From the NCBI GenBank assembly GCA_030765065.1, contig CM060980.1, forward strand, positions 61,364,364-61,428,363: DNA of 64,000 nucleotides, written 5' to 3'. Both the position numbers and the translations under genes were made by a program. Source of the DNA: Deroplatys truncata. Lineage: Eukaryota > Arthropoda > Insecta > Mantodea > Mantidae. This document shows, piece after piece, positions 3,181-64,000 of this stretch. Numbering within the stretch: position 1 is the stretch's first letter; each line of letters opens with the position of its first letter. The notes below the pieces were generated by a model, which had not been told where the DNA came from, ran no database searches, and saw nothing but the letters and a program-made list of their open reading frames with translations.

Positions 3181-4597
3181 TAGGGTGATTTATGAGGAAC
3201 TGACACATTTATTTCTTTAATTGTTTCAAAACGAATTATGCTAGCGTCAACTTATTATACCTGAGATGCAAAGGAATTTGGGGGAGATTATTTACCTCTA
3301 TAGCAAATGTTGAAAATGTTCTCCATCCTGCATAAGGCACAACTCAACGCATCGTTCCATGTTACTGGCCACTCGTTGTACTCTGTTGTCCATAACTTGA
3401 ATCTCCTGTGTAATGTTGAAAGAAGTCCGGCGATGTCAAATCCGGAGATCTCGGTGCCCACAGGTTCTTGGAAATAATCCAGTGTCAAAGAAACTTGCAA
3501 TTAGTGTCATGGATTCATTTGATGTATGGCATGTAGCGCCGTCCTGCTGAAAATATCCTTGAAGCAGTTCTACATTGTCTAGGTGCTCAGCAAACTCCAT
3601 GAAAATCCGTCAGTACTCTGCAGTGTTCACATCGTTTTAAAACAAATGGTCCCACTATTCTCTGTGCGGATATTGATCACCAAACTCCGATTTTAACCGG
3701 TGCATAGGTGCTTCATGAATAACATATGCTGATCCAATAGCCGGATAAATGGAACCATGCTTCATCTGTGAACCATGTGATGGACAACATTGCAGGATTT
3801 TGCACAATGAACGCCTGAAACCAACGACAATAATTAAGTCGTTTATCCTTATCAGGTTCCTATAACTGATGGACAACCGTAATCCTATACGGCTTTAGGC
3901 CTGCACTTTTCACAGCTCTGCAACACATTGAGCAGCTGTACTCTGTCTCCTACAACAAAGCTCTTAATGGTTTTTTGGGTGGCTGATCCAGTCGTGCTCT
4001 TATGTCAACAACAATCGTGGAAGCCTAGATGAACGAGTTTTGCCTTTTTCAATTACCAGAGATCCGGTTGTTTCCAATTTGTTTACCAGTCCCAGTATTG
4101 TGTTTCTTTGGGGAGGATTCCAAACACCAAATTCTCTCTGGTACGCCCTTTGAGTAGCTGTAATTGAATTCGTAATTTAGTATTGCTTTACAAGGAAGAG
4201 TCGTTCATTTAATGTGCACGATATTTTTACGTTTTTATTCGCTTGTTGTACCCAGTTTATGCTACTGTGTTTTACTGTTTTCATACCGCTTATTTACGCA
4301 ACACACACACATACAAACACCCATGCCCGTGGCGGAACTCGAACCCGTGACCCTTAGCTTGGCGGAGCGCCGGAGCGACCACGGCTACGAGGGCCGGCAA
4401 CGTTGACTAGAACAAAATCTCAAAAACAGTTTCCGACAATAATACTAACAATTACGAATAAAACATGAACATCTAGTGACAGGCAATCGAAACTCCAGAA
4501 CATTCTGCTTAATTTGGTGCTAAAATTGGGCCATTGAGTGAATTTCGAACAGAATAATTGAAGAAAGAAATGTGTCAGTTCTTCATAAATCATCCTG
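3181..4597 (-). mobile_element. Mariner 1: Tc1/mariner-type transposon, dead
   Basis: A DNA transposon bounded by inverted repeats of about 45 bp (outer part AGGGTGATTTATGAGGAAC at the left, its complement at the right). TA flanks it on both sides (3179-3180 and 4598-4599). The minus strand encodes a broken transposase of the DUF4817 plus DDE_3 type common in insects. In order one sees AYQREFGVWNPPQRNT and GLVNKLETTGS (helix-turn-helix region), then FTDEAWFHLSGYW (first catalytic Asp). SAGRRYMPY stands where the family has the second Asp motif, and RSPDLTSPDFF is near the third. Frameshifts and stops make it non-functional. It lies inside SINE-C and carries a SINE-B insertion at about 4200-4408. 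Without that insertion it is about 1.2 kb. Confidence 0.85.
4200..4408 (-). repeat. SINE-B inserted in mariner 1
   Basis: On the minus strand the tRNA-like head begins GCCGGCCCTCGTAGCCGTGG and carries the B-box-like GGGTTCGAGTTCC. A CATGGGTGTTTG stretch with TG repeats follows, then the GCGGTATGAAAACAGTA body. Other copies are at 38490-38637, 61275-61467 and 33330-33466. It interrupts the 5' end of the mariner 1 transposase, so it came later. Confidence 0.75.
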
Positions 4598-4599
4598 TA

Positions 4600-4792
4600 C
4601 TAACTGCCATCCGGGAGAATTTCAATCTAGAAAAATGTAGGGACTCTGCCCTCTGCGCTGACGTGCCCCCTGGTCCGGCCTCCTTCTGTCTCATCTCACC
4701 TCACCTCTCTCTACCAAGGGCTTAGACACAAAAGATCTTCGTAGGTCGATGTGCTCTTCTCTCCTAGTCTTAGTTCCACATCATGTGAAATC
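4600..4792 (+). repeat. SINE-C, 3' part, continued after mariner 1
   Basis: This matches the last third of the full SINE-C copy: GCCATCCGGGAGAATTTCAATC, the CCGGCCTCCTTCTGTCTC block and the TTCGTAGGTCGATGTGCT end with a CCTAGTC-type tail. Together with 2840-3178 it rebuilds one SINE broken by mariner 1. Confidence 0.75.
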
Positions 4793-5892
4793 AGGAGTAC
4801 TCGTTACTAAGGAAAGAGAGATCCCTAACCAAACGACAAATAAGTGGATGGTTTTACAGTTCTGGATATGACTAGCTCAGGCCATTGAGCCCACATATAG
4901 CTTTGAAGATTCTTCAAAGAGGTATTATAATCCTTTACTTCTCTTGAATATGTATTCAGTATCCGAAATGTTGGTGATCTCCGGACAGGCACAGTAGAGT
5001 GTTCCTGTAAAAATGAAAGTAGATTCGTTCATTGCTAGGCAACTCACTTTGGAAAGGTCCGTCCGCTCTTCCTTTGTGATAAAGGACCTTCCTCGTCTTT
5101 TTTCTCCCGCAAAGTATAAAGCGTCTCTTTGTTGTCTTGAAGCGTTAAACGGTGTATAAAAACGTGATCGTTAATTTTTTCCCCTTCCTTTCATTTTATC
5201 CTTTTTTATTGTTTTCGTTAGAAGGTAACTCTTGTGCTTTAATGTAAAAAGATAACGCTGTAAATTTCTAATGAATAAAAGTACACCAGGCATGAAATAT
5301 GTCTCAGGTCCCTCTATTAGCCGTGTTGACATCTATGTTAAAGCTTGTGGTATTTTTTTATCTGCCTCCACTGAGGCTGTTATTGAATGCACATTAGCAC
5401 TTAATGGACCCATTTTGGTCTGCTAAATGAGCACTTTGTATAGGTCTTTTGTAATAAAGGGAACAAGCCAGGGGGAAAATGTAAGCTTACTTAGATTTCA
5501 ATCTCGGCGTAGACTTGGTTGAATATTTAAACATTAGAAAGAACATAGGTACAAGAATCTTGTAAAAAAAAAAAGGCCAGAGTCATAGCCATGATTATAA
5601 AAAGAGTACAAAGCCAATGAACAATGTCTATTCATTATTAATGAGGAAAAAGAATATATGCATATTCTTTTTATATGCTTTATATATTATATTCTTTTTG
5701 TCATATTTACATATAAATTTATAGTTTCGGTAACTCAGCAAATTTTGGTTACTATAATATAGCCATGGTTTTATTTCTGGAAAATAATAGTACAGCTGGG
5801 CACTACAGTTGCATAACGTCCATCAAAATTCAGCTTAGACCTTAAAATGCTATGGGCAAATTATTGATTTTTGAGGTTGCAATGAAACAAAT
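4793..5892. other. No recognised gene; inverted repeat at 5647-5672
   Basis: AT-rich, with no protein or repeat recognised. Positions 5647-5657 (AAAAAGAATAT) and 5662-5672 form a perfect 11-bp inverted repeat around ATGC. Further TATATGC/TTCTTTTT repeats follow. Confidence 0.5.
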
Positions 5893-6725
5893 CCTGTGTT
5901 ACATTCACATTACCTTCTCTACCCTATATCATTTATTAGTGGGTGTACAAATTATTCAAACGAAAGCTTATTCTCTTCGAGATAAACCTTTCCGAAAAAC
6001 TATTACACATTTCCTTACAGTTAAAAAATAAATCGCGATAGTCAAATGTTTTAGATTTGGACGCTATACGCTGACCTTAAAATTCCATACTCTTTCTATG
6101 ACATCACGAGAAACAGCTGAATGTGGACAGGATTCGAAAAGAATTAGTGAGTATTGAATAATTCGAATCATTAATAACGGATATCTCCTAAATGCCTGAT
6201 GCTACAAAATTTATTTAAATAAATTGTGTTTTAAAGAGATCTCATTTCTTTGCAGTAAGTTTCGTCTATTACTTAAGGTTTACCAGTTACACAAGATTAT
6301 ACAAAATTCCTTCCGAATGAAGAAGCTTGACAGATTATTCTCAGAAAATTCAAGATATACCTTTTGTTTGTGATGTAAATATCTTTACTTTCTGGTATTT
6401 TAATAAATGTTACAGCTATTTTATAACATCAATAATTTAAAAATATATTCCATGTAAACGGTAGTTTGAGGTGGGGGATTTTCGTAAAAATCTTCATGTT
6501 GTACGTGTGGAGGGTACTGAACCTAAACACCAAGTTTGGTGCTTATCCAACTTTTCATTTTTGGGTTAAGCTGTTCACACACACGCGCGCGTATATTTTT
6601 ATAAAAATTCCTTGTTTAGATTCAAGGTGCCTCAAAACATTATTTCGGGTGAAATCTCGGTATCGAATTTTTGGTTGGAATGCAATACCTTCTCTACCTG
6701 CTAGGTAAATGGTAGAGAAAATAAC
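5893..6725 (+). mobile_element. HLX element, near full length
   Basis: An HLX copy of about 830 bp. The 5' terminus resembles CCTGTGTTACATTCACAT with the subterminal CCTTCTCTACC. The internal CGCGCG/ACAC microsatellite is at about 6576-6592. The 3' block AATCTCGGTATCGAATTTTT...GGTAGAGAAAATAA ends at about 6725. It is non-coding. Confidence 0.85.
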
Positions 6726-12499: not shown

Positions 12500-14199
12500 T
12501 AAACTAGAACTCCCTCACGCCTCAGGTACGTGGTAGGTATTGAAGTATTGCATTCCAACCAAATATACCATATCGAGATTTCACCAAAAATACACGTTTT
12601 GAGGCCCTGAAGAAAGAAAAAAAAGCGTTTTAGAAAAAGGTCCGTGTGTGTATGTTTCTGTGTGTCAGTGTATCTGCGTGTCTGTGAACAGCATAAAGGC
12701 TGGTTCACAACCACCCGAGAACGGTAACCAGAACGGAAACGAGAACGGAAAGCAATGCACCATGCAAGATATTGGTTCACAACAACCCGGTAACGAGAAC
12801 GGGAATGCATATCGATCACAAAGTGAAAGTCAATTTTGCGCATTGGGATTTCATTTTTTTTTAACTGGCCAATGTTATTTTTCACCTACTTACAATTTAG
12901 CCAAGCCAACGTCAAAATTCGATAGAGTAAACATTATCTAAATGCATATTCATTACATTTCGATCGCTCTACTTATGCCAAGCTTTCATTCCTTTGTTTA
13001 ATGGCATACATTAAAATTGTTTATTGTTCTTTTCCCATTTCCAACGGTTTTAGCTGTTCTTGCTGTTTTGCCTTGCTTTTTAGGTAATAGCCAATTTTGA
13101 GTTGCATGTAAGCAAACTACAAATGACCCCTTCAACAGAGGAACCAACGCTGATTAGATTTGCGGGTGTCGGTGTGAGGTTAGGAAGCACATTTACTAAC
13201 TAATTCCTTCCAGTTTCATGTTTGCAGCTTGCGATTATAGAGAGCACTAATGGCTGTTTCATGTCACGGCCTCCTAGAATAACGTCTAGAGCGAAGAGTA
13301 TAGTATGCACAAATTGGATCTAATATGCCGTACCCGGGAACGAGAACGAGAAAGTTAAAAGTTGCGGAACTCTTCTTTGCCGTTCCCGAGGCCCGGGAAG
13401 GCTTCCCGTCGATTGTGAACACTCCCATTTGAATACATGTATTTCAACTTTCTCATTCTCGTTCTGGTTACCGTTCTCGTTGGTTGTGAACCAGCCTTAA
13501 CTCGAAAACAAAAAGTCGGATAAGTATCAAACTTAGGATTTAAATTCAGTATTTTCCAAGGATGCGACAGGAACATTTTCAAGAAAATCCCTCCACCCCA
13601 CCTACCATTTACATCTAACATTTTTTAATATTTTAATTTTCTAACAAATGACTAACAATTTTGATTAAAATACTATATATTAAAGATATTTACATGACAA
13701 ATAAAATGTATATCTTGAATTTTCTGGGAAAAGACTTTAAAGTCCTCTTCATTCGGAAGGATTTTTTTGTAATCTTGTAGAACTGGTAAACGTAAAGCGA
13801 TAGACGAAAATGTACTACACAAAAAATGTAGATCTCTTTAAAACACACAATTTATTTAAATTAAGTTTTGTGGCATAAACAATTTCTGACATATCCATTA
13901 TTAATGGTTCCAGTTGTTAATTTTTTGGTCATTCTTTAAAGTTCTTTCAACATTCAGTTGTTTCTCGCGACTGCATGGAAACAGTATGGAATTTTAAGGC
14001 TATGGTATAGCGTCCAGTTCTTAAACATTTAACTATCGTATTTCTCTTTGTATCTATAACGAAATGTATAATGTAGCTGTTTCTGCAAAGGTTTATTTGG
14101 ATTATTGGCAGATATAAAAATAATCTTTAGTAAGAATAGCTTGTATACTCACTAATAAAGTTAGACGGTAAAGAAGATCATGCGAATGTACCACATCAG
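12500..14199 (-). mobile_element. HLX element split by an 801-bp insertion
   Basis: A reverse HLX copy. Its 3' block lies at 12500-12696 and the remainder at 13498-14199, ending in the complement of CTGATGTGGTACATTC. Joining the two parts restores the conserved phrase GAACAGCATAACTC, which is continuous in the copies at 22899-23742 and 48532-49349. That fixes the boundaries of the foreign element at 12697-13497. Confidence 0.9.
12697..13497. mobile_element. 801-bp TIR element with TAA target duplication
   Basis: A non-autonomous DNA transposon of exactly 801 bp. Both ends begin AGGCTGGTTCACAACCA, and the inverted repeats run on for about 40 bp with one indel (GAGAACGGTAACCAGAACG in both). 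TAA flanks it at 12694-12696 and 13498-13500. The uninterrupted HLX copies carry a single TAA at this point, which proves a 3-bp duplication. TWA duplications are typical of PIF/Harbinger elements. Each subterminal region also has irregular GAACG/AACGAGAAC repeats. A further partial terminal motif is at 12772-12803. No transposase is visible in the AT-rich middle. Confidence 0.9.
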
Positions 14200-14979
14200 A
14201 TTCTTTCTCTATGAAAGGCACTTTTATTACTAATAAAATAGGTGTCAGTTAATTCATTGTTTATAAAACGTGTTACCATCGCGATCGTTTAGCCAATGTG
14301 CTTATTCAAAAACAATTAAACCTTTCTACACTAATTATACCTCGAACTGCACGAGGTCTTGAAGTATTTGGCTTTTCTTAGAATGTAGGAACTGCAAAGG
14401 AAGAAAATATACAGCAAGTTGCTGAGGCAATGAAAAAGAATGTTTCCATTGATTTAAGATCGTTAAAACCGAATGTTACGGATATGTGTTAAAATGCAAC
14501 GCCGATCTTTCAGAAATCTCCATCTTTGGTTCTTCCTTGCTTTATGCTTGGAAACCTTAATTCAAGCCCAGAACTTCTTCCAAGAGCAGTTTCTAATCAG
14601 CGGTTGTTGGCTGCTGAAATCTTTTAAAGATAAAAGCATATTATAACTTGTGTTGACTTGTTAAATTAAAATAAACTTTAAATGCAATGACTAAAATGAA
14701 TAAAATGTCTGTCTTCTAAGCTCAACCATCCAATATTTCTTCTCTCCTCTTTGTCAATGCGTTCTATAAAGATAAACAGCAGATTCGAATCAGAAATAGA
14801 GAGTCGCACATTTTGCTTCCTTTTATATTAATTTTTAGCTAGCTTTATTAACTTTAATCATTAAAGTGAGGTATAAAGGTACATTTTAATTACTTTATAC
14901 ACTCAAACTGCTGTTTCACATTATAAATGCTGTAGCAGGCGCAGGGAAATGTGAATTATAGTGCTATTTCGAGTGCTAT
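14200..14979. other. No recognised feature
   Basis: A plus-strand frame at about 14440-14630 can be read for some 40 residues (QKSPSLVLPCFMLGNLNSSP and following). Stops flank it on both sides. I do not recognise it. Confidence 0.35.
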
Positions 14980-22510: not shown

Positions 22511-24225
22511 TGAAGTATAATATCTTTACGTTATTTGCACCCCGCTTTGCGCACCAAACATAAGGTAGTTGCAGCCCCACGTACATACAAACTTTCCGGT
22601 GGCCTTCGCCCCAACGTTTAAAATGCAAGTTTGTATTTTAATGTTTATTTAAATATTATATATGTATATTTGCCTCGCCTGCGTCAGTAGTAATTTGCAG
22701 AAACACATATCTCTTAGCAAGGGTTGGTGCGGCTAAATAATGAAGGCGTACACAAATTATAATTTTTACTTCACTCCTTTTATTAATCCTTCACACAATT
22801 AAATAACACTTCAATGATATATCCTACTGTAGAGCTGTGAGATTATTTTTACTTGTACTATTTAACAGGTAAACTTTATATTATTCACGCTGTAATGATT
22901 TTTAGTTTCTCTACTACGTATAGTAAGTGTGGGAAGTATTGTATTCCACCCAAAAATTCGATACCGAGTTTTCACCGGAAATGCATGCTTTGAGACCCCC
23001 TGAATTCAAAAAAAAACTTTTTTGGAAATATGTCCGTGTGTATGTCTGTCTGTCTGTGAACAGCATAACTCAGAAACGAACAGTCGGATAAACACCAAAC
23101 TTGGTATTTAGGTTTAGTATCTTTCAGAGATGCGACATGAAGGTTTTCAAGAAAATCCCCACACCACAGAATACTCTTTACATGGAACAGTTTTCGAAAA
23201 TTTTAATTTTCTCAAAATGGCTCTAACGATTTTGATTAAAATATCATATGTTTAAGATATTTTCATGAAAAATTAAATGTATATCTCGAATTTTCTGGGA
23301 ATGTCTCCAAAAGTATTCTTCATTGTGAACGACTTTTGTATAACTCGTAAACCGTAAGTGATAGACAACATTTTACTACACAAAAAATGCAGATGGCATA
23401 AAAATACACAATTTATGTCATATACATTTTTTTGTTGAGTAAACCATTTTCGAGATATTGCTTGTTACTCCCTTAAATTTTCCAATACTTATACTTTTTC
23501 TCAAATTCGTTATTCAATTTTTTTTGTTCTGGTAATGCAAAGAAAATGGAATACTTCACATAGCAGCCAGCTCTTAATATATTTGACTATAGCTTAAAGC
23601 CTACCAATTCCCCTTGCATCTACCAGAAAATTAGCAATAAGATTAACATCTCGATATCTCGATTAACAGCATATATAGAATAAGCATTTGTAAAAATAGT
23701 TTGTACAAGAGTAGAAAACGTCATGTGAGTGTAACACATCCGATTTATTTTTGTCTTGCACTGTATACGTACCGAGCAAACGAACTACTCAGGTACGCTA
23801 TCTTCTAGCGTCTGCCGCTTGAATTTGCACATTTCAATTTCTGATTGGCTAATCGTACTCAATAGAATACTTTTATTTAACTTAAAGCTTTTCTAGTTTT
23901 TGATTGGTTATTTATAAGCTGTTTTAAATATTACATTATTGTTCCAAGAATTATTAGTAGCATTATTAAACTTTCTAATTTATTGTTGTTTCAAGGTTAC
24001 CTCATTGTTAGCAACTTTCGGCTTCTATTCTCACAGCTCGCACATTGTTAAATTACGTAATACATTCACATAACATTATTATACATGTACATAATAATAT
24101 AAACATAATACAATGACTGTTACATACATTTTATGTATTATATTATACACATATTTCTTTAAGGCGGGCTGTTATTATATTTTATAATTAGATGGTATCA
24201 TTTAAGTGTTAAAGATACTGCCTCA
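22511..24225 (-). mobile_element. LTR-G copy 1 inside mariner 2
   Basis: On the minus strand it starts TGAGGCAGTATCTTTAACAC and ends in ACTTCA. It is flanked by GGGA and GGGT of the mariner, a likely 4-bp target duplication. The interruption lies exactly at the GDE codons of the transposase. It has two CCAAT boxes (TAAGCTGTT...AACCAATC region, about 23845-23915). Near its 3' part are GTTGGGGCGAAGGCC and a GGGGTGCAAATAACG motif. It contains an HLX copy at 22899-23742; without that it is about 870 bp. Whether it is a solo LTR or an internally deleted copy is unresolved. Confidence 0.75.
22899..23742 (-). mobile_element. HLX element, complete, in LTR-G (T^T site)
   Basis: A complete 844-bp HLX copy. 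On the minus strand it starts CGGATGTGTTACACTCACAT and ends GTAGAGAAACTAAAAA. The related LTR-G copy at 47551-48405 lacks this insertion and shows the host phrase GAAAAGTTATTGCGATGAG. Here the host reads ...AAAT, then the element, then TCATTACAGCGTGAATAAT. The element therefore went in between two T residues with no duplication. It has the internal GTCTGTCTGTCTGTG microsatellite and no coding capacity. Confidence 0.9.
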
Positions 24226-24889
24226 TCCCATGATAATGTGGTGAAGAAAACTGTGCCCTTCCGTGGAAAACAGTTGCAAAAGTTGCAGACCTGCCCCCAT
24301 GCGCTTCTCCTTGTGTTGGTAGGACAGATTTCATGGAACTCATCGGGAACAGACTTTCCGGTACTACAAAATATCGTGAAGAATGTGGTGAACACTTCCG
24401 AATGACATTCTCAATTCTACCGCCATATGCCGTAACGTGATCTTCCTGTTGGCCTGAATCAGTTCCTCCACGCGAGCTATGTTCAAATCTGTTGATGCTG
24501 TGCTGGTGGATTTTTTCTACCGGTCGCAAACTTTCGACCACCCTTGCGACATGCTGAGGAGACATTACATTCTCTTCGTAAACCTCTACCAGCTGCCGGT
24601 GAATTTCAGCCGCGGTTACATGTTTCGTCCACAAATAACGGAGCGGATTTTTTCGCGAGACCAGTTTTCCAAACGAGTCACCGTTTGCGTTTACCTACAA
24701 TTAGCACTGTAGGTGGCGGGTGGCTGAAAATCTGCATGGTTGCCAATCGCATGTATTAGAATTAAATTAGTATTACTATTAATTTCTCTGTAACGTACGA
24801 AATTCCAATAATGTCGGCTTTGTAACCTTAGTTTCGGATCATCCCTCGTATAATTAATCTAAAAACGTTACTTAATAATGGATGTAGGA

Positions 24890-26037
24890 TGATTTTTATC
24901 AAATTGGTAATATCTTCAGCCGTAAATTGCGGCGGTTTTAATGAATATTTGTGTTTACTTGTGTTTTGCCCCACGTTTGGGAGCCAAATATGCGGCGGTA
25001 TTCTTTGTTAAGTTTGAAAGCTCCACGTTGTGGTAGACAATTTGTGACCGTATTCTTTGTTAAGTTCCACGTTGTGGTAGCCAATTTGCGATGGTATTAG
25101 TGTTTGTTTGAAAGAATTCTACTGTTTATTTGCTGCACGTATAAAAGACAATTTGTCGCGGTCACTTCGTGTTATCTTTTACTGGGCGCCTATTATTGTA
25201 TTTAATATTTTTGGGTTCACTGTCCTCCGGCTAGCTATGATCTTTTTGGTCGAGCACTTATCTTATACAAGGTGTGTAAACGGAAAGGAGTTTTTATCCA
25301 AAGATAACACTGATGAAGAATTTGTTTTACACTTTTATTGTCGTAACATATTATGCACTTTCACATATTAATCTTGACACTTGCCAAACTGAAACTGTTA
25401 TACTAACTTATTTACTGCCCCTTATTAATTCGCGTACTTCAACTTTTTGTGTACTTAACTTTACGACAATTGAGATTTTTTTATAACTTTGCTACGCGTA
25501 ACCTGCGAATCGATAAACTATGCTATGTATTCACCATGACTGTTTTTGTTGAACTCAGCGACGTGTAATGCACAAATGTTTCCGATGGACTGGAGCCGAC
25601 GTGTAATGTACAAATGTTTCCGATGAACTGGGAGGGATCTACCTCTGACTTAGCCCTTTATATACTCCCACATCCCGATATGCCTAAAGATTATAACCGA
25701 GCTGCAATTGGTTAATAAAACGCGCCAACATTAGCGTCTATTTTTATATCCAATTAAAATTACGAAAACATATGCTCTAGGGAAAAATGTTTCCGCAAAT
25801 TCTAAGAAAAACGCGCCACTCTGACGTCATTTGCTCGTCTCTAATAATGATAAACAGCTCACCCCCTCGCTACATTATTGCACGCTATTATTGTCAGTTT
25901 CAGTAAGGCCGTATAAACCCACTTCTCAACAATGCTTACAATAAACAAACATCTCAAATCAATGTTACACAACAATGCATATTCACACTACAATCACTCT
26001 GACATTTACATAATTTGTGATACAAATTACTGCGTCA
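24890..26037 (-). mobile_element. LTR-F copy 2 with leader repeats
   Basis: On the minus strand the LTR runs from TGACGCAGTAATTTGTATC (26037) through a TATA box (GGAGTATATAAAGGGC, about 25659-25674) and an AATAAAAGTGTAAAAC signal. It reaches GGAGGACA near 25216. The leader after it has AGGCGCCCAGTAAAAG. Then come repeated 'CAAATTG...CTACCACAACGTGGA' units (about 25025-25095) and CTCCCAAACGTGGGGC (about 24972-24987). The last resembles the tRNA-Lys primer site TGGCGCCCAACGTGGGGC. No pol is present. Confidence 0.7.
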
Positions 26038-27447: not shown

Positions 27448-29547
27448 TTTTAGATTTTAATTGTTGGCATATATTTTTTTATATTTTAAGCACATATTTT
27501 TTAAATTATTCAGCACATAAAAAATTAACATTTTTCAAGTTTTTAGCACTTAATAATCCGAGACCTAGTCATAAGTGACGGTTGTATTACGGAATCCATC
27601 ATCACGAGAAGGTGGATTCCATACACATAGCGTGATATAGATGCAATCCGGACATTTAAGCAGCATCATTGTTACATCCTCATAATTCTAAGAATCATCA
27701 TCGCCATATTATCATTATCACTGTCATCATCTAATCTACATTTAGGATTACTCCGATTATTATAGAAAAATCTCTGAAGGATTCTATTGGAATTGTTGCT
27801 GTCTTCCTGGGTTGGTTATTGAAAAAAAATCTTTGAAAATTTAGTCTGACAAGCTATAGTATGTAAAGGTTTCAACTAATCAGTTTCGTGTCTTTTCAAT
27901 TCTTTAAAGGATACACAATTATTTACTGTCTAACTTGCATATCCTACAGTGATTTAAAACAAGAGCCGTATCCCTCCATTTTGTACTAATGTTTCATCTA
28001 ATATATTCAATGTGCAGTTTTAACAACTATAGCTCAACAATGGTACGAATATTTCTTTTCAGAACTTAATTTGTAATTCTCTTAAACATTTATAATTTAT
28101 CTTTATATTTACTTTCCAGTATTCATTTTATAAATATTAATTTCCTGATAAGCCAAGGTTATAGAATTAACACATAGTTATATTATCTTTGTTCTCCATA
28201 TTATCCATAAGTTAATAATAGGACTTTGAGTACATCTAATAGACTATACGGTTTCCAAAAATAATACAACGTACCTCCAAGAAATGTTTTCTATGCCCAA
28301 ATGGCTAACATGTCATATTGGGGTTTTTGTAAAATTCCAATTATACATACAGTTATACCAAGTAAATACAGCATCAATTCAATAGGCAGATATAAAGCTT
28401 CAGTAGACTTTACTCCTTATGGAGTAAGTTAGGTTGCATATTCGGAAAACTGAATGGTGTCGGCGCGACCTGATGTACCCAGTAACAACTAGAGTTTCAA
28501 GTTTACATAATTTTAAAATGCCTTTACTTTTACAAATGACTGTATAATTAAAATTCAGAACCACGTGTCTATTTTCTAGCTACTAGATGACCTATACGTA
28601 AAGGTTCTGGCAATCTCCTCTCTGGATAATATTATCCATAAAATGTTTAAGTGTCGTTTTTGCTTACTCTCCGGATTGTTGTGGCCGCATGTCAGTCACT
28701 GCCATACAATTTCTTCCTGCATCCCTCCTCTTCAAAATTCAACTCTTCCAGAGCTCAACATCCATGTGATAGGTCTATGTCAGTTGTGATGTCTACCATT
28801 CTCCTCCGTCTCTTTTCCTTGATAACACATACACATGCGTTCCCTTCTTCCCCCTCCGGTTCCACACTCATCCCCACTCCACCCTTTACAGTGTTTCGAG
28901 CCCAGACTCTAGCTCTGTCTGTTGGACAAGTGCCCATGAATTCTTGAGCGTTCATGAATAAAAGTGTGGCGAAATGACCTTCTCTACCGCCGCCTCCGTC
29001 ACCGCCCCCCATCCCTCATGTGACCCTTCCCTCGCCCTTAACATTCACGCTGTATGTCCTACACTTTTGCTCTGGTTAGCAATGACGAGGCAAAGAACTT
29101 CGACTCTGTTGAACAGCATACCTGAGTATCTGCAACATCACCACTTGAAACCCAAACTTTTATTCCATGAAATAGGATCCCTACTCCCTACCTAGAAAAA
29201 AACTATAACATTTTGGGAGAGAAAGTTAGATTTGAAGAACTCTGGCCGTCTCAAATTTGAACCTCAGATCTTCGTACTTGTGTATAGCCATCAACGAAGT
29301 AGCTGGGGCTGTTTTCCTATATCCAAATATGGATATTTCTCAGATCAAATTTACGTAGACCTGCAAAGTTATCTCAACAGCGAGAGACCTGCAGTGGACA
29401 TTCATTTGTAAATCAGTTTGCTACAAAATAAAATGCGACTTCGAGAAACGATTAACTCTGCACAATTGTCAATTTTTATTGCTGCATATTTTTACAGTCT
29501 GGTGAATTTTACGGATATTAACAAGTCCTGACTCAAATATAAATAAT
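27448..29547. other. Unassigned; C-rich block at about 28790-29040
   Basis: Mostly AT-rich and featureless. Around 28640-29190 the plus strand becomes pyrimidine- and C-rich (CCCTTCTTCCCCCTCCGG, CCGCCGCCTCCGTCACCGCC). It has open frames on both strands (98 codons plus, 85 codons minus). I recognise neither; low-complexity composition could explain them. Confidence 0.35.
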
Positions 29548-30416
29548 CTGAGTGTTACACTCACATGACTTTCTCTACTCTTGTATAAACTATTTTTACA
29601 AAGGCTTATTCTCCATATGCTTCATGTTAATCGAGATATCGAGATGTTAATCTTATTGCTAATTTTCTTGTACGTGCAAGGGAAATATGGTAATTTTTAA
29701 GCGACAGTCAAATCTTTTAAGAGCTGGTTGCTATGTGGCGCATTGCATTCTCTTTGCATGTCCAGTACGTAAAAAATGAATAACGAATTCCCATTTGAGA
29801 AAAAGTATTGGAAAATTTAAGGGAATAATAAGCAATATCTCGAAAATGGTTCACTTAAAAAAAAATGTATATGACATAAATTGTGTATTTTAACCCGATC
29901 TACATTTTTGTGTAGCAAAATTCTGTCTATCTCTTATGGTTTACCAGTTAAGCAAAAATCGTTCACAATGAAGAATACTTTTGGAGGCATTCCCAGAACA
30001 TTCGAGATATACATTTCATTTGTCATGAAAATATCTTAAACATATGATATTTTAATCTTAATTGTAGCCATTTTTGAGAAAATTAAAATTTTCGAAAACT
30101 TTTCCATGTAAAGGGTAATCTGGGGTGGGGGATTTTCTTGAAAACCTTCGTGTCGCATCTCTGGAAGATACTGAACCTAAATACCAAGTTTGGTGTTTAT
30201 CCGACTGTTCGTTTCTGATTTATGCTGTTCACAGACACACACACAGACACACACACACCCACACAGACAGACATACACACGGACATGTTTCCAAAAATGC
30301 TTTTTTTGGATTCAGGGGGTCTCAAAACATGTATTTCCCGTGAAATCTCGGTATCGAATTTTTGAGTGGAATGCAATACCTCCCCTACTTACTATAGGTA
30401 GTAGAGAAAGTAAAAA
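29548..30416 (+). mobile_element. HLX element, complete reference copy
   Basis: An intact-looking 869-bp copy, flanked by T at 29547 and T at 30417. The 5' end is CTGAGTGTTACACTCACATG, then ACTTTCTCTACTC (subterminal repeat, about 29570). The microsatellite CACACACAGACACACAC...ACAGACAGACATACAC lies at about 30236-30282. The end is TCTCGGTATCGAATTTTT, CCCTACTTACTATAGG, then GTAGAGAAAGTAAAAA. The GTAGAGAAAGT is the inverse of ACTTTCTCTAC at the 5' side. It has no open frame of note. Confidence 0.9.
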
Positions 30417-41930: not shown

Positions 41931-41960
41931 AGAGTAAGTGCAAAACAGAAAATGAAAAAT

Positions 41961-42804
41961 ATAATGTTATACATTCATAACACGTTCTCTACTCTCTGTC
42001 TTTATTAGTGAGTGTACAAACTATTCTTAATAAACATATTTTTCTATACACTACATTTTAATCCAAGTAATGCTTTGTAGAAATAGCTACATTGCGCATG
42101 GCGTTATAAAGGGAATAGCAAAGTCAAATGTTTAAGAACCGTTTCCATGTAATCGCGGAAATAACTGAATGTTTACAACACAAAAGAGTATGACCAAGTA
42201 ATGAACAATTCGAACCATTAATAACAAACATCTCAGGAATAGTTTATGCCACAAAAGTACTTATTTGAAATAAATTGTATGTTTTAAAGAGATCTAGTTT
42301 TTGTGTGTTTGCATTGCTGGCATTCTTCACTTATTTGTTTTTTGTTGTACGTTTTCCCCTATTCCTTAACGTTTTCCAGTTATAAGATTATACAAAATTC
42401 CTTCCGAATGAAGAGCACTTCACAGGCTATTCCCAGAAAGTTCAAGATATACATTTTTTTTCTTCATGTAATATCTTTAATATATGGTATATTAGTAAAA
42501 ATCGTTAGAGCCATTTTTCTAAAATAAAAGATTTCGAAAGATGTTCCATAAAAAGGATAGTTTGGAATGGAGCAACTTTCTTGAAAATCTTCCTGTCACA
42601 TCTTTGAAAGTATTGAACCTAAATATCAAATTTGGTATTTATCCAAACTTTCGTATTTGAGTTATGCTGTTCACAGGTACAAAAACAAGAACATTTCCTA
42701 AAAATGCGTTTTTATGTTCAAAGGAACTCAAAACATGTATTTCCGGTGAAATCTCAGTATCAATACCTCCCCTACCTACTAGGTACGTAGTAGAGAAAAT
42801 AAAA
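41961..42804 (+). mobile_element. HLX element, near full length
   Basis: About 844 bp. The 5' part resembles ATGTTATACATTCAT and CGTTCTCTACTC. It has all middle blocks (GAACAATTCGAACCATTAAT, CCTTCCGAATGAAGAGCAC) and ends CCTACCTACTAGGTACGTAG, TAGAGAAAATAAAA. The CCTAC...GTAGG hairpin near the 3' end is well kept here. A second, partial copy starts 43 bp downstream in the same orientation. Confidence 0.85.
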
Positions 42805-46332: not shown

Positions 46333-46510
46333 TTTTTTTCTACAATCGCGAGAAAGAGCTGAAAATCGATAGGACTAAAATAATTACAAAGTATTGAACA
46401 ATCCGAACCATTAATAACAATACCTCAGATATGTCTAATCTCACAAAAAGGATATTTGAAATAAATTTATGTTTTAAAGAGATCTACGTACCTGGTAGAA
46501 AAAGTAAAAA
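46333..46510 (+). mobile_element. HLX element, internal fragment joined to its 3' end
   Basis: It contains the block from ACAATCGCGAGAAAGAGCTG through GAACAATCCGAACC to AAAGAGATCTACGTACC. It then jumps straight to the terminal GGTAGAAAAAGTAAAAA at 46510. About half of the element is deleted. A single T (46511) follows and the next copy begins at once. Confidence 0.8.
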
Positions 46511-46511
46511 T

Positions 46512-47339
46512 CGTATGTGTCCATTCACATGATTTTCGCTACTCACTCTTCCACAAATAACTCTTACAAAATCTTATTCTTCTATCTACTTCTTGTTAAG
46601 ATAAATAAACCTATTACACAGTTAGTTGTAGATATAAGAAGAATACACTAAGCTAAAGTGATAGTCAAATCTTTTTATTCACTCGCTATCTAATGATATT
46701 GAAATTTATTTCCCTTTGCATAAACATGAAAAGAAAGAATAGCGTCTTGCAGTAAAGAATATACAAAGTATATGAAAATTCAAACTAATAGCAAACGATA
46801 TGTTGGAAATGGTTAATGGCACAAAATATTTATTTGACATAAATTGTGTGCTTTAACGAGATCTCGCTTTTGTGTCGTATTATTTTGTGTATTTATTACG
46901 GTTTACCAATTTCGTAAAAGTCATTCAAAATGAGGAGGACTTCATGACTTAAAGACTATTGCTATAGAACTTATATAATCAAAATCGTTAGAGCTATTTA
47001 AAAAAGATTAAAAATATTAAAAGTAACGAAATTTTTCCATGTAAATGGTAGTTTTGATGGGGCAATTTTGTTGAAAATCTTCCTGTCCCATCCTTGGAAG
47101 ATGCTGAACTTAAATACCAAGTTTGGTATTTAAATGACCTTTGGTTTGGTTTTCTGTTCACATACAGACATAGAGAGAGAGAGACGCACAGAGAGGATCG
47201 TTTTCTAAAAATGCTTAAATGCCTGTTTTTATTCAGGGAGTCTCAAAAACGTATTTCTAGTGAGTTTCGGTATCTAATTTTAAGGTGAAATGCAATACTT
47301 CCTGTTTTTACAATAGGTAAGCAGTAGCGAAAGTAAAAA
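46512..47339 (+). mobile_element. HLX element, complete, tandem with previous copy
   Basis: An 828-bp copy flanked by T (46511) and T (47340). It starts CGTATGTGTCCATTCACATG and ends AAGCAGTAGCGAAAGTAAAAA. Its microsatellite is GAGAGAGAGAGACGCACAGAGAG. It is joined head to tail with 46333-46510 through one T. Confidence 0.88.
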
Positions 47340-48531: not shown

Positions 48532-49349
48532 TTTTTACTTTCCCTACCACAACATAGTAGGAAGAGAAGGTATTGCATTCCACCCAAAAATTCGATACCG
48601 AGATTTCACTGTAAATGCATGTTTTGAGGCCCGGAATTCAAAAAAGTATTTTTCGGAAAAGGTCCGTGTGTTTGTCTGTGAACAACATAACTCAAAAACG
48701 AAAACTCGGATAAACACCAAACTTGGTATTTAGGTTCAACACCTTCTGAAGATACGATATGAAGATTTTAAAGAAAATATTTCCAACCCAAAACTACCCT
48801 TTACATGCAACATTTGCGGCATTTTTGATTTTCTAAAAAATGGCTCTAAAGATTTTGTTTAAAATACCATATATCAATAACAAATAAAATGACAAGTAAA
48901 ATTCATATCTTGAATTTTCTGGAAATAGCCTTTGAAGTCCTCATCATTCGGAAAGAATTTTGTATAAACTGGTATAACTAGTAAACTTTAAGCGATGGAA
49001 GAATCAAATAACTCTTTTGTGACAGACATTTACGAGATATCCGCTATTAATGGTTCGAATTGATCATTATTTGGTAGTTCGTTAAAGTCCTTCAACATTC
49101 AGTTGTTTCTCACGATTACATGAAAATAGTTTGGAAGTTTAAGGCCAGCGTATAGCATCCAGTTCTTAAATATTTGACTATCGTTGTTCCCTTTGCATCT
49201 ATAACAAAATGTGTAATATAGATATTCCTGCAAAGATTTATTTGGATTAAAATGAAGCAGATAGAAGCATAAGCTCTAGTAGGAATAGTATGTATATCCC
49301 CTAATAAGCGATAGAGAGTGGAGAAAGTCATGTGAATGTAACAGATCAG
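48532..49349 (-). mobile_element. HLX element, complete
   Basis: An 818-bp reverse copy. The plus-strand left edge is TTTTTACTTTCCCTACCAC; the right edge is GTGGAGAAAGTCATGTGAAT and GTAACAGATCAG, followed by A (T on the element strand). All internal blocks are in order. A 144-codon open frame across its 5' end is fortuitous. Confidence 0.88.
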
Positions 49350-51279
49350 ATTTTTCGTGTCTACTTTAGAGAATCTTTTAATGCTTAGACGAAACCTCTG
49401 TTCTATCTGCATGGGATAAAAATTCATCTTGTTTAATACGAAAACATAGTGACCGTTTATGAATGTCGGAAACGTTTGTTTAAAATTCAGTGGAGAATTG
49501 TCTTCAAAACAATTGCCTAATTGTCTTCCTATTGGGAGATCTATGCTCACTGATGCAAGATTGAAGAGGATTTGCTTTAAAGTAACTCAAGTATAACCAG
49601 AATAATAAACTATGACTAGGTCCTGCGTTGGCAACTTCTCTGTTCCTGCAGCACTGCAGGTATGCAGCATTTCAGGCGCTTTCTCGATAGTTCAGTCGCA
49701 AAAGAAAGCTCGTCACGCAGTATTTCCAGATAGATTTCTAAGATATATAAGTTCCTCACAGTCATAGCAAATTTAGCTAAATATATAGCTCTCTGTTATT
49801 TTGTGGCAATTTTTGCTCAAATGTCTTAAAACCTGTACTGTAGATTAAGCTAACACAAGCTAAGTTTATTTAACTTTCTTTAGTAATACCACGAGTGCTG
49901 ATAGCGTTTTTGGTAATTTAATTGAGGTTAATGAATTATCTAATTGCAGCAAGCATGAGTTTGAAAGCTAAGTTAAATTATATAAGAAACATTAGGGGGG
50001 CGAATTCGTTAAGATAAGTACAAAGCGTGAACAAAACCACGGTTTTCTTTTGTACTTTTGATGTAGTTACTGAAGTGGCTTACCTGCTTCATCTTTCTGA
50101 AAATATTCAATAATATTATTATATTTTATCCCAAGCGGAACTGCATATCTGAATTAAACAAAACACAAATGAGCAATAAGTGTTGTAATGAGAAACTCTT
50201 TTGGTAGGCAGTAAGATAATCAAATCGAAGCAGAGGTGATAGAGTGCATCCGGCAAAACTGAAAATTGGTTCCATACCATCTTTTTATTTCCTTTTGTAT
50301 TATGTTGGATCTCGTACTGCTTCTTTTCTATTTTGAATTTCCAAATCACCAAATCTCCCATTTGTTATAGTTTGTACCAACCAGGTTGGTGAACAGGAAA
50401 ATGCATAGGTTTCCTACATCCCTAGTGACGAATCAGAGCATAGATTATAGAAATCAAAAAAATAATCGGATAAAAAGTATCAGATATTAGTTTGTGCGCA
50501 TCATGCTTTAAAGCTATCGATTAAGTTCCATTCTGATTGTGAATAAGACATCAGTGATCAGTGAGACGTACATTGCCTGAAAGGCGCTCATGTGAAATTA
50601 TCAAAATAGTTGTTTTATTTTTTGCTTATTTATTGTTTACCTTAAATACTTGAGCAGAAAACGCAAGGGCTTTAACAGCATTTTACTGTGTCCTCTCGTT
50701 TTACAGAAATACTGTACGCATCTGTGTGTCACATACTGTTAACCATTTTATATTCTTATCAATTGTTGAATTTTTATTCTGTGATTTGTTTATTTCCTTA
50801 TGTTTCCATTTAATGAATAGGTAGATAATTATACATTTAGTATAATAAGCACATTTTATTTCCAATTACTAAATTGTTACATATTCGAAGCATTAATATT
50901 TTCTATGATTCGAGTATAAAGTCATTTTAGATAAGCCAGGGATAATGTTTAGTCTCCCAGGTAATAAAGTATAATACAATAATAAAACAGAGAGACAGCT
51001 TTGATAATGGGTTACGGAATCCAACTAATCAAAGAAGAAGTGAAGATCCTGCTACAAGGAAATAAAATACGTAAGCTTCACAATGACCGCGTTTTGAAAC
51101 AGTTACATGCTTATATGAACCTGGTTTGAATTTTCTCAGAGAAAGATGGACTATTAATTCGTTATTTTTCGTCTTAAATAAGGAATGCACATAATTACTA
51201 AATAATTTCTATTCATTCTAAGGTTTATATGTAAGAAACAGCCATTATTGGTTAATATCTAAGGGCTTCTTGACCACTA
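49350..51279. other. No recognised feature
   Basis: AT-rich. A minus-strand 80-codon open frame at 50119-50361 is unrecognised. No shared repeat. Confidence 0.5.
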
Positions 51280-53674: not shown

Positions 53675-54613
53675 CTTATTTTTACATTCACCTAACTTTC
53701 TCTACTGACTTTTCTACAAACTATTCTTACAAAAGCGTGTTATTATATCTCTTCTTGTTAGTCAAGATAAGCTTTCAATTCATATTTACACATTTCGTCG
53801 TACGATACAGTAGGTAAAGCGATAGTCAGATTTTTAAATGCATGTTGCTATGTGATGGCTTTGAAACGCCATGATCTTAGATGACCATGAGAAAAAAAAC
53901 TTCCCATTTGAGAAAAGAAAAATATTTACAAATTCAAACCAATAATAAAGAATATCTCGGAAATTGTTCACTCCAAATAATGTATTTGATATGAATTGTA
54001 TGCTTTAGTGAGTTCTACAGTTTTTTCTGTAGTAAGGTTTTTTCGTTCTATTACGATTCAATAATTATACAAGAGTCATTCGGAACGAAGAGCACTTCAG
54101 AAGGTATTCCCTGAAAATTCAAAATATGCATTTAATTTGTCATGCAAATATCTTAGGCATATGGTATTTTAATAAAAATAGTTAGAGCCAATCGAACATT
54201 TCAAAAAATCTTCCATGTAAGAGTAGTTAGGGTAGGGGACTTTCTTGAAAATCTTCGTGTTGCATCTTTGGAAGATGCTAACCCTAAATACCGAACCTGG
54301 TATTTATCGGACATTTCGTGTTTTATCATAATCATCAGTTGGACCCTATAATTATGGCTGTTAATATTCACCGAATATGATTACTTTAGAGACTGCAAAC
54401 AGACAAAAAACAATAAAAATTAACTTTAAATGAAATACAAATGAATTTAAATCAGAAGCAAGAAGAATAACACGTATTCGAGTTACGCTGTTCACAGGTA
54501 CATACACACACATACAGACAGACAGACGGACCTAGTATAAAATTGCCTTTTTTTTATTCAACGGGCCTCAAAACATGTATTTCTGATGAAATCTTGATAT
54601 GAGAAAGTAAAAA
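53675..54613 (+). mobile_element. HLX element with a 160-bp insert and 3' deletion
   Basis: The 5' end is CTTATTTTTACATTCACC after a T, with a good subterminal ACTTTCTCTACTG. It is regular to TTTATCGGACATTTCGTG. About 160 bp of foreign sequence (54318-54480) follows, then it resumes with CGAGTTACGCTGTTCACAGG. Near the 3' end the GAATTTTTGGGTGG to CTAGGTAG part is deleted, leaving GAGAAAGTAAAAA. Confidence 0.85.
54318..54480. mobile_element. Unidentified 160-bp insert in HLX
   Basis: It replaces nothing: the host phrase 'TTCGTTTTTGAGTTATGCTG' is split here. Similar CGTGTTTTAT and ACACGTATT stand at its edges. It is AT-rich, with no tRNA head and no clear inverted repeat. Confidence 0.5.
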
Positions 54614-58968: not shown

Positions 58969-59905
58969 TTTGTGACGTGATTCTTTGTTAGGTTTGTTAG
59001 CTCCATCTGGTGTTAGCAATTTGCAGTAGTATTAGTGTTTGTTTGAAAGAATGCTACGGTTATTTTATTTAATTTTGGTTTACTGTCCTCCGGCTAGCTA
59101 TGATCTTTTTGGTCGAGCACATCTCTTTATACAGGTTGTGTAAACGGAAAGGAGTCTTTTATCCAAAGATAACACTGATGAAGGAATTTGTTTTACACTT
59201 TTATTGTCGAACACATTCACTATCACATTTACACATTGATCTTGACACTCGCCAAACTGAAACTGTTATAATAACTTCATTACTGATCATTCTTAATTCG
59301 AGTATACTTCAACTTTCTGTGTAATTAACTTTACAACACTTGAGATTTTTCATAACTCTGCTGGACTGAAGGCGACGTGTAACATACAAATATTTTCGAT
59401 GAACTGACGGACTGAAGGCGACGTGTAGCATACAAATATTTTCGGTGAACTGACAGACTGAAGACGACGTGTAATGTACAAAGATTTTTGATGAACTGAC
59501 GGGCTCTATCTCTAACCTAGCCCTTTTTATACTCCTACGCCCCGATATGCCTAAAGATTATAACTAAGTTGCTATTGGCTAATAAAACGCGCCAACATTA
59601 GCGTCTATTTTCATATCCAATGAAAATTATGAATACATATGCTCTAGGGAAAATATTCCAGAAAATTCTAAAGAAAAACGCGCCAACATTACGTAACTTC
59701 CTCGTCTCTAATAATGATAAACAGCTCACCCCCTCGCTGCATTATTGCACGCTATTATTGTCAGTTTCAGTAAGGCCGTATAAACTTACTTCTCAACAAT
59801 AATTACAATCAATAAACCTCTCAAATCAATGTCACATAAAAATGCATATTCATACTATAATCATTCTTTACATTTAAATAATTTATGATACAAATTACTG
59901 CATCA
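58837..59905 (-). mobile_element. LTR-F copy 3 with leader and gag-like start
   Basis: On the minus strand the LTR begins near 59905 (TGATGCAGTAATTTGTATC). It has a TATA box (GGAGTATAAAAAGGGC, about 59522-59537) and AATAAAAGTGTAAAAC. It contains three similar units at about 59360-59500, each with GACGTGT and TACAAA...TTTTCGATGAACTGAC-like sequence. It ends near GGAGGACA (about 59083). The leader continues with CAAACAAACACTAATAC to the gag-like ATG at 58968. No further internal sequence is seen to the left. Confidence 0.7.
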
Positions 59906-63143: not shown

Positions 63144-63523
63144 TAACATTAAATATTTAATAGTAAAAGCAAACATCGAGATATTTTAAATACGAAACAT
63201 TACTTAGAAAATGTATTTTTACTTTCAAAATCGATAATTATGGTCCACGCAAGGGATTACTTGAAATAAATAAACCTATAGAAAATACATATAAATAATC
63301 ATAATCGGCCATTACATGCGGATTATCTGATGGGGTTTAACGCAGTACAAAGCAGCAATACATAGGTAAGAGTGCTAAAGGAAGAAGGTCTTGCCATCTG
63401 TTGAATGTTTGTTGTATTACTACAGTTGCGCTCCAGCCTTATGATCGATACAAGTGAGTGCTGACGACGTCTAAGCGTTCCCTCGCAATGTTATTTCTTA
63501 AATCTGCTCCTTATTTTTTACTT

Positions 63524-64000
63524 TCTCCACTATTTACCTGTAGTAAGTAGAGGAAGTATTGCATTCCATGCAAAAATTCGATACCGATAGTTTACCGGAA
63601 ATACATGTTTAGCGGCTTCCTGAAAAAAGAAGGGCATTTAAAAATTCTGTGTGTTTGTGTATATATTATGCCTTTCTGACTCTGTGTTCTGCAAACAAAA
63701 TAACTACAAGAAGAAAAATAAAAAACATTAATTAAATACCAAACCTGGTATATAAGTTCAGCATTTTTAAGGATGCGACACGAAGACTTTCAAGAAAATT
63801 TCCCCAAACTAACTTTATATGAAAACATTTTTGTTGTTTTTTATTTTCTGACAAGTGACTCTAACGATTTTGATTAAATACCATTCATCTAAGATATTTT
63901 CATAATAAATAAAATGTTTTTTTGAAATAGTTTATAAAGTCCTCTTCATTCCGAATGGTTTTTCTATAACCGGTAACCATAAGACATAGATGAAATCTTA
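63524..64000 (-). mobile_element. HLX element, cut by window end
   Basis: The reverse copy starts with TTTTTACTTTCTCCAC, then the GTATTGCATTCCATGC and ATTCGATACCG blocks. It continues in order to the TTCCGAATGGTTTTTCTATA block at the window end. The 5' part lies outside. Confidence 0.85.

Follow-up and report, generated by a model that had tools for sequence, protein, structure and literature searches.

HLX, an abundant non-coding repeat of Deroplatys truncata, and a Helentron that shares its ends

HLX is a real and very abundant non-coding repeat, present in more than a hundred thousand places of the Deroplatys truncata genome. It is almost certainly a HINE whose autonomous partner is a Helentron, near-identical copies of which still exist with open frames in the same genome. 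It is an element of a known kind, notable mainly for its scale, and its partner has been found.

Abundance and structure of HLX

The window (the whole stretch of 64,000 nucleotides analysed here) had been credited in a preliminary description, made from the sequence letters, with about 17 pieces of HLX amounting to about 16% of its length. A profile built from 37 genomic copies (E ≤ 1e-5) bore this out, finding 19 stretches that cover 9,752 bp or 15.2% of the window, while the same profile gave one match of 67 bp in the reversed window. A lower figure of 11.6%, obtained by simple blastn with one window copy as query, was limited by the sensitivity of that search and has been superseded by the profile value. 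Six of the 19 stretches are near full length (profile positions 1-8 to 874-876), among them those at 5894..6720, 41960..42798 and 46509..47334 on the minus strand and at 22906..23746 and 48537..49353 on the plus strand. Partial copies lie at 13481..14202 (plus), 53681..54323 (minus) and 63520..63999 (plus), the last being cut by the end of the window. With at most one mismatch allowed, the subterminal motif ACTTTCTCTACT is found at 13 positions of the window against 0.25 expected, a count that none of 100 shuffles reached.

Beyond HLX, the window contains a 161-codon frame on the minus strand (24212-24694) with a weak match, below cut-off, to the Mos1 transposase helix-turn-helix (PF17906, E 3e-4), which is perhaps a mariner remnant. 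Two tandem repeats, at 59363-59502 (46-bp unit, 3 copies) and 25559-25631 (38-bp unit, 1.9 copies), have CGACGTGTAA and CGATGAACTG in common between their units.

The abundance extends to the genome at large, which was searched as 4.29 Gb in 818 contigs. The 5' 32-mer of HLX has 114,368 exact occurrences and the 3' 31-mer 114,698, and neither reversed pattern occurs at all. Part of the 3' count stems from one tandem array. Near the start of contig C1 (20518-122776), 28 of the listed 3' ends follow one another at intervals of about 3,409 bp, three of the gaps being doubled, and a 3.4-kb tandem unit there therefore contains the HLX 3' end. In ten 5-kb pieces taken at round coordinates outside the window, the profile assigned 6,107 of 50,000 bp to HLX, with matches in six of the ten pieces; when reversed, the same pieces gave one match of 85 bp. 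On this small sample the share of HLX in the genome is very roughly a tenth.

For the analysis of ends and flanks, a search with the window copy at 29547..30416 scored 40 of 5,236 candidates. One was the window copy itself, and the other 39, ranked by likeness to it, match it at 88.7-91.2% and were retrieved with their flanks. Two of these (L046 and L047), in which one end was unrecognised, were left out of the end tables, and L041 was additionally left out of one flank table.

This window copy is full length and non-coding. It had been placed at 29548..30416; its AAAAA end at 30412-30416 is as reported, and its start proved to lie one base further out, at 29547. Comparison with the Helentron ends described below puts the 5' end of the copy at 30416 and its 3' end at 29547, and HLX is thus read on the minus strand here. 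For the strand we rely on both the end structures and the direction of the coding frame because one Helentron with a reversed frame is on record (PMC4067079). In the forward reading most copies have the form (A)n|TCTGATGTGTTACACTCACATGACTTTCTCTACTC...CTACTTACTATACGTAGTAGAGAAAGT|AAAAA, which on the element strand becomes TTTTT|ACTTTCTCTACTACGTATAGTAAGTAGGGG...GAGTAGAGAAAGTC-ATGTG-AGTGTAA-CACAT-CAGA|TTTT.

All end features of the copy are given on the minus strand. The TTTTT of the 5' terminus (30412..30416, AAAAA on the plus strand) probably belongs to the element. It is followed by the 5' subterminal inverted repeat (subTIR) ACTTTCTCTACT at 30400..30411, which is identified by the motif count and by the Helentron 5' end, and by an imperfect palindrome at 30378..30411, delimited by position against the consensus, whose outer arm lies inside that subTIR. 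Towards the other terminus come the 3' subTIR, AGTAGAGAAAGT on the element strand, at 29568..29579 and the 3' hairpin (consensus ATGTG-7 nt-CACAT, here minus one base) at 29551..29566. Inverse subterminal motifs at both ends had been noticed before and are indeed present, with 5' and 3' exchanged, as the element is on the minus strand; the two repeats fall within the 12-15 bp expected of subTIRs in a Helentron or HINE. The internal CA/GACA microsatellite also noticed earlier was located by Tandem Repeats Finder at 30230-30285. A T-run at 29771..29776 (A6 on the plus strand) corresponds to the self-insertion hotspot of the family and is empty in this copy.

Folded as single-stranded DNA, the consensus 5' palindrome reaches -5.7 kcal/mol (z -3.26), with one of 200 shuffles as good. 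For the consensus 3' hairpin z is -0.65 and 49 of 200 shuffles are as good; its 5-bp stem ATGTG/CACAT is kept in position among copies and folds no better than shuffles. The window copy's own 5' and 3' ends give z values of 0.15 and 0.53, with 138 and 109 of 200 shuffles as good. According to PMC4067079, elements of the DINE-1/HINE plan have a 5' subTIR that includes the outer arm of an inverted repeat, and a 3' subTIR followed by a short palindrome. The HLX consensus has the DINE-1-type inverted repeat by its 5' end, with the outer arm within the 5' subTIR. The match to this plan, together with the fold results, shows that the CTACTTAC...GGTAGTAG hairpin, initially taken for the 3' hairpin, is the palindrome of the 5' end; the true 3' hairpin is ATGTG...CACAT. 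HLX ends in TTTTTACTTT and CAGA, set in T-runs, and so has neither the 5' TC and 3' CTRR of Helitron1 nor its insertion between A and T.

Viral contigs scanned for exact matches to the HLX 5' end gave none. A literature search with the subTIR letters found no transposon paper among the titles and abstracts returned, and searches for Helentrons and Helitrons of orthopteroid insects yielded data on Helitron abundance in grasshoppers (PMC7486953) and no family that could be matched to HLX, which does not imply that none exists.

A Helentron bounded by HLX ends

A search for the Rep family PF14214, in which 150 of 291 candidates were scored, returned 152 matches, and none were returned from 14 control genomes. 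Among the matches listed, 30 have frames of at least 1,000 codons. We read one Helentron in full (C9:66062627-66073038), an element of about 10.4 kb with a single open frame of 2,324 codons. Over the 2,291 codons searched, its protein matches PIF1 (PF05970, 1.8e-28), Helitron_like_N (PF14214, 1.2e-27), DUF6570 (1.1e-16) and Herpes_teg_N (1.2e-8), as well as Pif1_2B; the Herpes_teg_N match is, on our own reading, a putative OTU-like N-terminal domain. The last 224 residues match the endonuclease family Exo_endo_phos_2 (PF14529, 1.8e-6) with 28.2 bits against a cut-off of 27.4. With this C-terminal endonuclease as query, PDB sequences gave nothing below E 0.38, and the matches there were unrelated. 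The motifs HEH and YIIKY, seen in the frame by eye only, are candidates for the two catalytic histidines and two tyrosines of the Rep.

Frames of more than 2,000 codons range from 2,108 to 2,543 codons between copies among the PF14214 matches listed. At about 4030-4990 of locus L078 the Helentron frame contains a long array of charged repeats, EDEEYKKSERKRNKEYMEQAR among them; this array may be the reason for the variation in length.

Six Helentron copies were examined, one in full and five at their end regions. All six begin with TTTTT|ACTTTCTCTACTACGTATAGTAAGTAG and finish with ATGTGAATGTAACACATCAGA|TTTT, and these are the ends of HLX. Identity to the HLX consensus is 94.9-97.8% over the first ~646 bp and 94% over the last 33 bp, and the coding frame runs on the same strand as HLX read 5' to 3'. 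Over the last 736 bp the six copies are 99.5-99.9% identical to one another. Because the ends are shared in all six Helentrons, we conclude that HLX is their non-autonomous partner, a HINE. The preliminary description had inferred a Helentron-type family and proposed searching the genome for a Rep/helicase Helentron with the same termini; such an element has now been found in this genome, with an endonuclease in addition, and it shares both termini in every copy examined. No HLX sequence was found in the Helentron outside its 5' leader and its final 33 bp, and HLX therefore did not arise from the present Helentron by a simple recent deletion. Searches of the window with blastn and tblastn found no remains of the Helentron body.

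The strong 5' palindrome of the consensus, combined with a 3' hairpin, also brings to mind Helitron2, elements with hairpins at both ends and no endonuclease, whose termini are described as similar to those of Helentrons (PMC5148889). However, the protein of the HLX partner ends in an Exo_endo_phos_2 domain that narrowly exceeds its cut-off, and this domain, which is reported for Helentrons (PMC4067079), separates the two groups. We regard membership of Helitron2 as very unlikely.

The genomic distribution of the family may be uneven. The largest contig, C16, has 707,006,351 bp and makes up 16.5% of the genome, and it holds none of the 40 scored HLX matches, a non-random sample ranked by likeness to the window copy. 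Among the PF14214 matches listed, none of the 30 with frames of at least 1,000 codons is on C16, and 16 with frames of at most 451 codons are. HLX was absent from both 5-kb pieces sampled on C16 (L098 and L099), and also from two of the eight pieces sampled elsewhere. Young copies seem to avoid this contig, and our guess is that it is perhaps a sex chromosome.

Target sites, self-insertion and composite elements

Flanks were compared in 38 copies (37 genomic copies and the window copy). In 29 of these TTTTT stands on both sides, which is uninformative with respect to duplication. In the nine informative copies no pair of flanking pentamers is identical, L039 becoming so only through a one-base shift. 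Uninterrupted sites exist, and none of the 38 copies has a target duplication outside the T-run. The earlier statement that HLX makes no target duplication holds for bases other than T, a duplication of Ts only being compatible with these flanks.

One T-run inside HLX is a hotspot of self-insertion and accounts, by exact patterns, for 26,807 empty sites, 13,111 5' junctions and 8,127 3' junctions, and the reversed controls for all three patterns gave no occurrence. By the same exact motifs, about a third of the left halves (13,111 of 39,918) have a new 5' end at this hotspot. Inspection of 100 listed places per junction class found mostly 7-8 Ts at the empty hotspot, mostly 5 at the 5' junction and mostly 7 at the 3' junction, so that a nested insertion gains about five Ts. 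We take these Ts to be carried by the HLX element, with a T-only duplication as a possible alternative; Culex Helentrons bring Ts along as part of the element (PMC4067079).

Such a gain would equally suit a MITE that a DDE transposase moves by cut and paste and that duplicates an A5/T5 target: five Ts are what a 5-bp T-only duplication would add, and most copies have TTTTT on both sides. The fixed-length duplication expected of a MITE was nevertheless seen in none of the nine informative copies, unless it consisted of Ts only. Moreover, the ends of HLX are asymmetric, and a Rep/helicase element is bounded by those same ends in all six copies. No DDE element with such ends came up among the sequences examined. 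A MITE origin of HLX is therefore scarcely credible.

Nesting was typed from the 500-bp flanks of the 38 copies. Seven (L012, L016, L017, L028, L035, L036 and L039) have both halves of a host HLX around them at the hotspot, the host being a variant HLX for L012, L028 and L039 and lacking about ten bases at L035. The 3' half alone was found at L020, L026, L037 and L042, of which L037 lies behind another HLX and L020 adjoins an old inverted HLX piece, and the 5' half alone at L022 and L031, with the 3' side of L022 in another HLX site. L009, L025, L032 and L038 are nested at other T-runs, and L019, a tandem, borders another site as well. The remaining 20 of the 38 have no HLX half at their junctions. 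At L020 and L026 the lone 3' half stops exactly at the HLX terminus, and on the other side the new copy's own 5' end stands beside the inverted HLX piece (69%) and beside DNA without HLX, respectively.

On C1, we paired all 100 listed 5' junctions with 66 3' junctions, the first of 100 in their list; the first 30 of 100 listed empty sites were also entered and contribute to no count. In the listed part, a 3' junction lies at 850-960 bp from 12 of 97 5' junctions and within 6 kb of a further 20, and 65 have none; of 63 3' junctions, 12 have a 5' partner at 850-960 bp, 12 more within 6 kb and 39 none. Stacking also occurs: a spacing of 600-680 bp applies to 25 of 100 5' junctions, and one of 220-240 bp to 13 of 66 3' junctions. 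Given the many unpaired junctions on C1, symmetric nesting is insufficient as the sole source of the hotspot junctions. One-sided HLX composites are in moderate surplus, and we claim no more than this because decay of the motifs, which are intact on the left in 21 and on the right in 18 of the 38 copies, explains a good part of it.

The Helentrons are themselves composite. All six begin with a ~646-bp HLX half that ends at the hotspot and is followed by an older 5' end, about 87% identical to HLX, giving an HLX-derived leader of ~1.9 kb in which two 5' ends follow each other. The inner junction is identical in all six. Between copies the outer half differs by 0.56-1.08% outside the microsatellite zone and by 3.3% in it. 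For the remainder of the 5' region the figures are 0.43-0.84% and, in the inner microsatellite zone, 1.6%, so that divergence of the outer half is like, or slightly above, that of the rest. The 5' flanks are of at least three kinds: copies B and E lie in HLX hotspots, C follows an HLX 3' end, and A, D and F are in dissimilar DNA. The 3' flanks of the six all differ. That the outer half is mere host DNA can be dismissed, given the same inner junction at different places and a divergence near that of the body. The same junction and outer half in differing flanks indicate that the composite Helentron moves as one unit, and the outer half was probably captured.

Could the one-sided composites be later deletions or products of unequal recombination, rather than of rolling-circle starts and stops? 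Ectopic events are to be expected given the enormous copy number, and the one-sided surplus is moderate (13,111:8,127, or 1.6:1, against 21:18 for intact left and right motifs). The exact stop of the lone 3' half at L020 and L026, with the copy's own 5' end on the other side, argues against this, as does the presence of the same outer half and inner junction in six dispersed Helentrons, which needs movement as a unit. We consider this explanation unlikely, if far from negligible. We lean towards the view that HLX gave the Helentron its working 5' end after a hotspot insertion from which the six copies descend, and that serial self-insertion at this site, with its thousands of junctions, would then be a main route by which the family forms new composites.

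Proposed mechanism and comparison with known systems

Established rolling-circle models suggest how the shared ends, the T-run targets, the composites and the young coding copies observed here could be connected. Rep would nick at the 5' end, the helicase would unwind as far as the 3' hairpin, and the single strand would be copied into oligo-T at a nick made there. Where elements are nested, a start at the outer 5' end would sometimes yield double-5' composites, and a run past the inner 3' end double-3' composites. Most likely, the Helentron first occupied an HLX hotspot and was later mobilised along with the upstream HLX half, which would have become its present 5' end. The enzymology and the movement set out here are conjectured from sequence.

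These results tie together the partner, the ends and the orientation of a non-autonomous Helentron within one genome. HLX represents a heavy rolling-circle load, of the order of a tenth of a 4.3-Gb genome on a small sample, which is relevant to the question of how some genomes come to be so large. The counted hotspot, in its empty and filled forms, offers natural experiments by the thousand on the start and stop points of rolling-circle transposition, and the near-identical open-frame Helentrons allow a bench test. For comparison, helitrons account in grasshoppers for 7-20% of the repeatome (PMC7486953), and in the silkworm 67,555 sequences related to Helitrons amount to ~4.23% of the genome (PMC3789558).

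HLX resembles the HINE and DINE-1 elements described from Drosophila, mite, Culex and oyster (PMC4067079, PMC7492417) in being non-coding, in its subTIRs and 5' nested inverted repeat, in its microsatellite and putative 3' hairpin, and in its oligo-T target without duplication beyond Ts. It differs from the mite HINE in having its 3' subTIR 22 nt and its hairpin 4 nt from the 3' terminus, compared with ~38-60 and 8-35 nt in the mite, and from HINE and DINE-1 as described in these sources in having more than 114,000 exact 5' ends and one internal T-run that serves as a heavy self-insertion hotspot. The non-autonomous Helentrons of the oyster were left without an assigned helper (PMC7492417).

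Like other Helentrons, the partner combines Rep, PIF1 helicase and a C-terminal Exo_endo_phos_2 in one frame, together with the putative OTU-like N-terminal domain, and has T-run boundaries; unlike them, it is ~10.4 kb long, with a ~1.9-kb HLX-derived leader, two 5' ends and a long charged repeat. As is proposed here for HLX, the Helitron1 elements Helraiser and Helibat have a 3' hairpin terminator open to bypass, which was demonstrated experimentally for Helraiser (PMC4778049), whereas the ends of Helraiser are 5'-TC and CTAG-3' (PMC4778049) and those of HLX TTTTTACTTT...CAGA. A parallel to the composites is FoHeli, a Helitron2 of Fusarium, which also inserts into itself and has several 5' ends with one 3' end (PMC5148889), a structure predicted by the model in Fig. 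7 of that paper; the mechanism proposed above follows the scheme drawn there for FoHeli. FoHelis are without endonuclease and duplicate 5' pieces that typically measure less than 200 bp, in contrast to the ~646-bp outer half here. As such composites have been described for Fusarium Helitron2, those of HLX and its Helentron are of a known kind and remarkable mainly for their scale.
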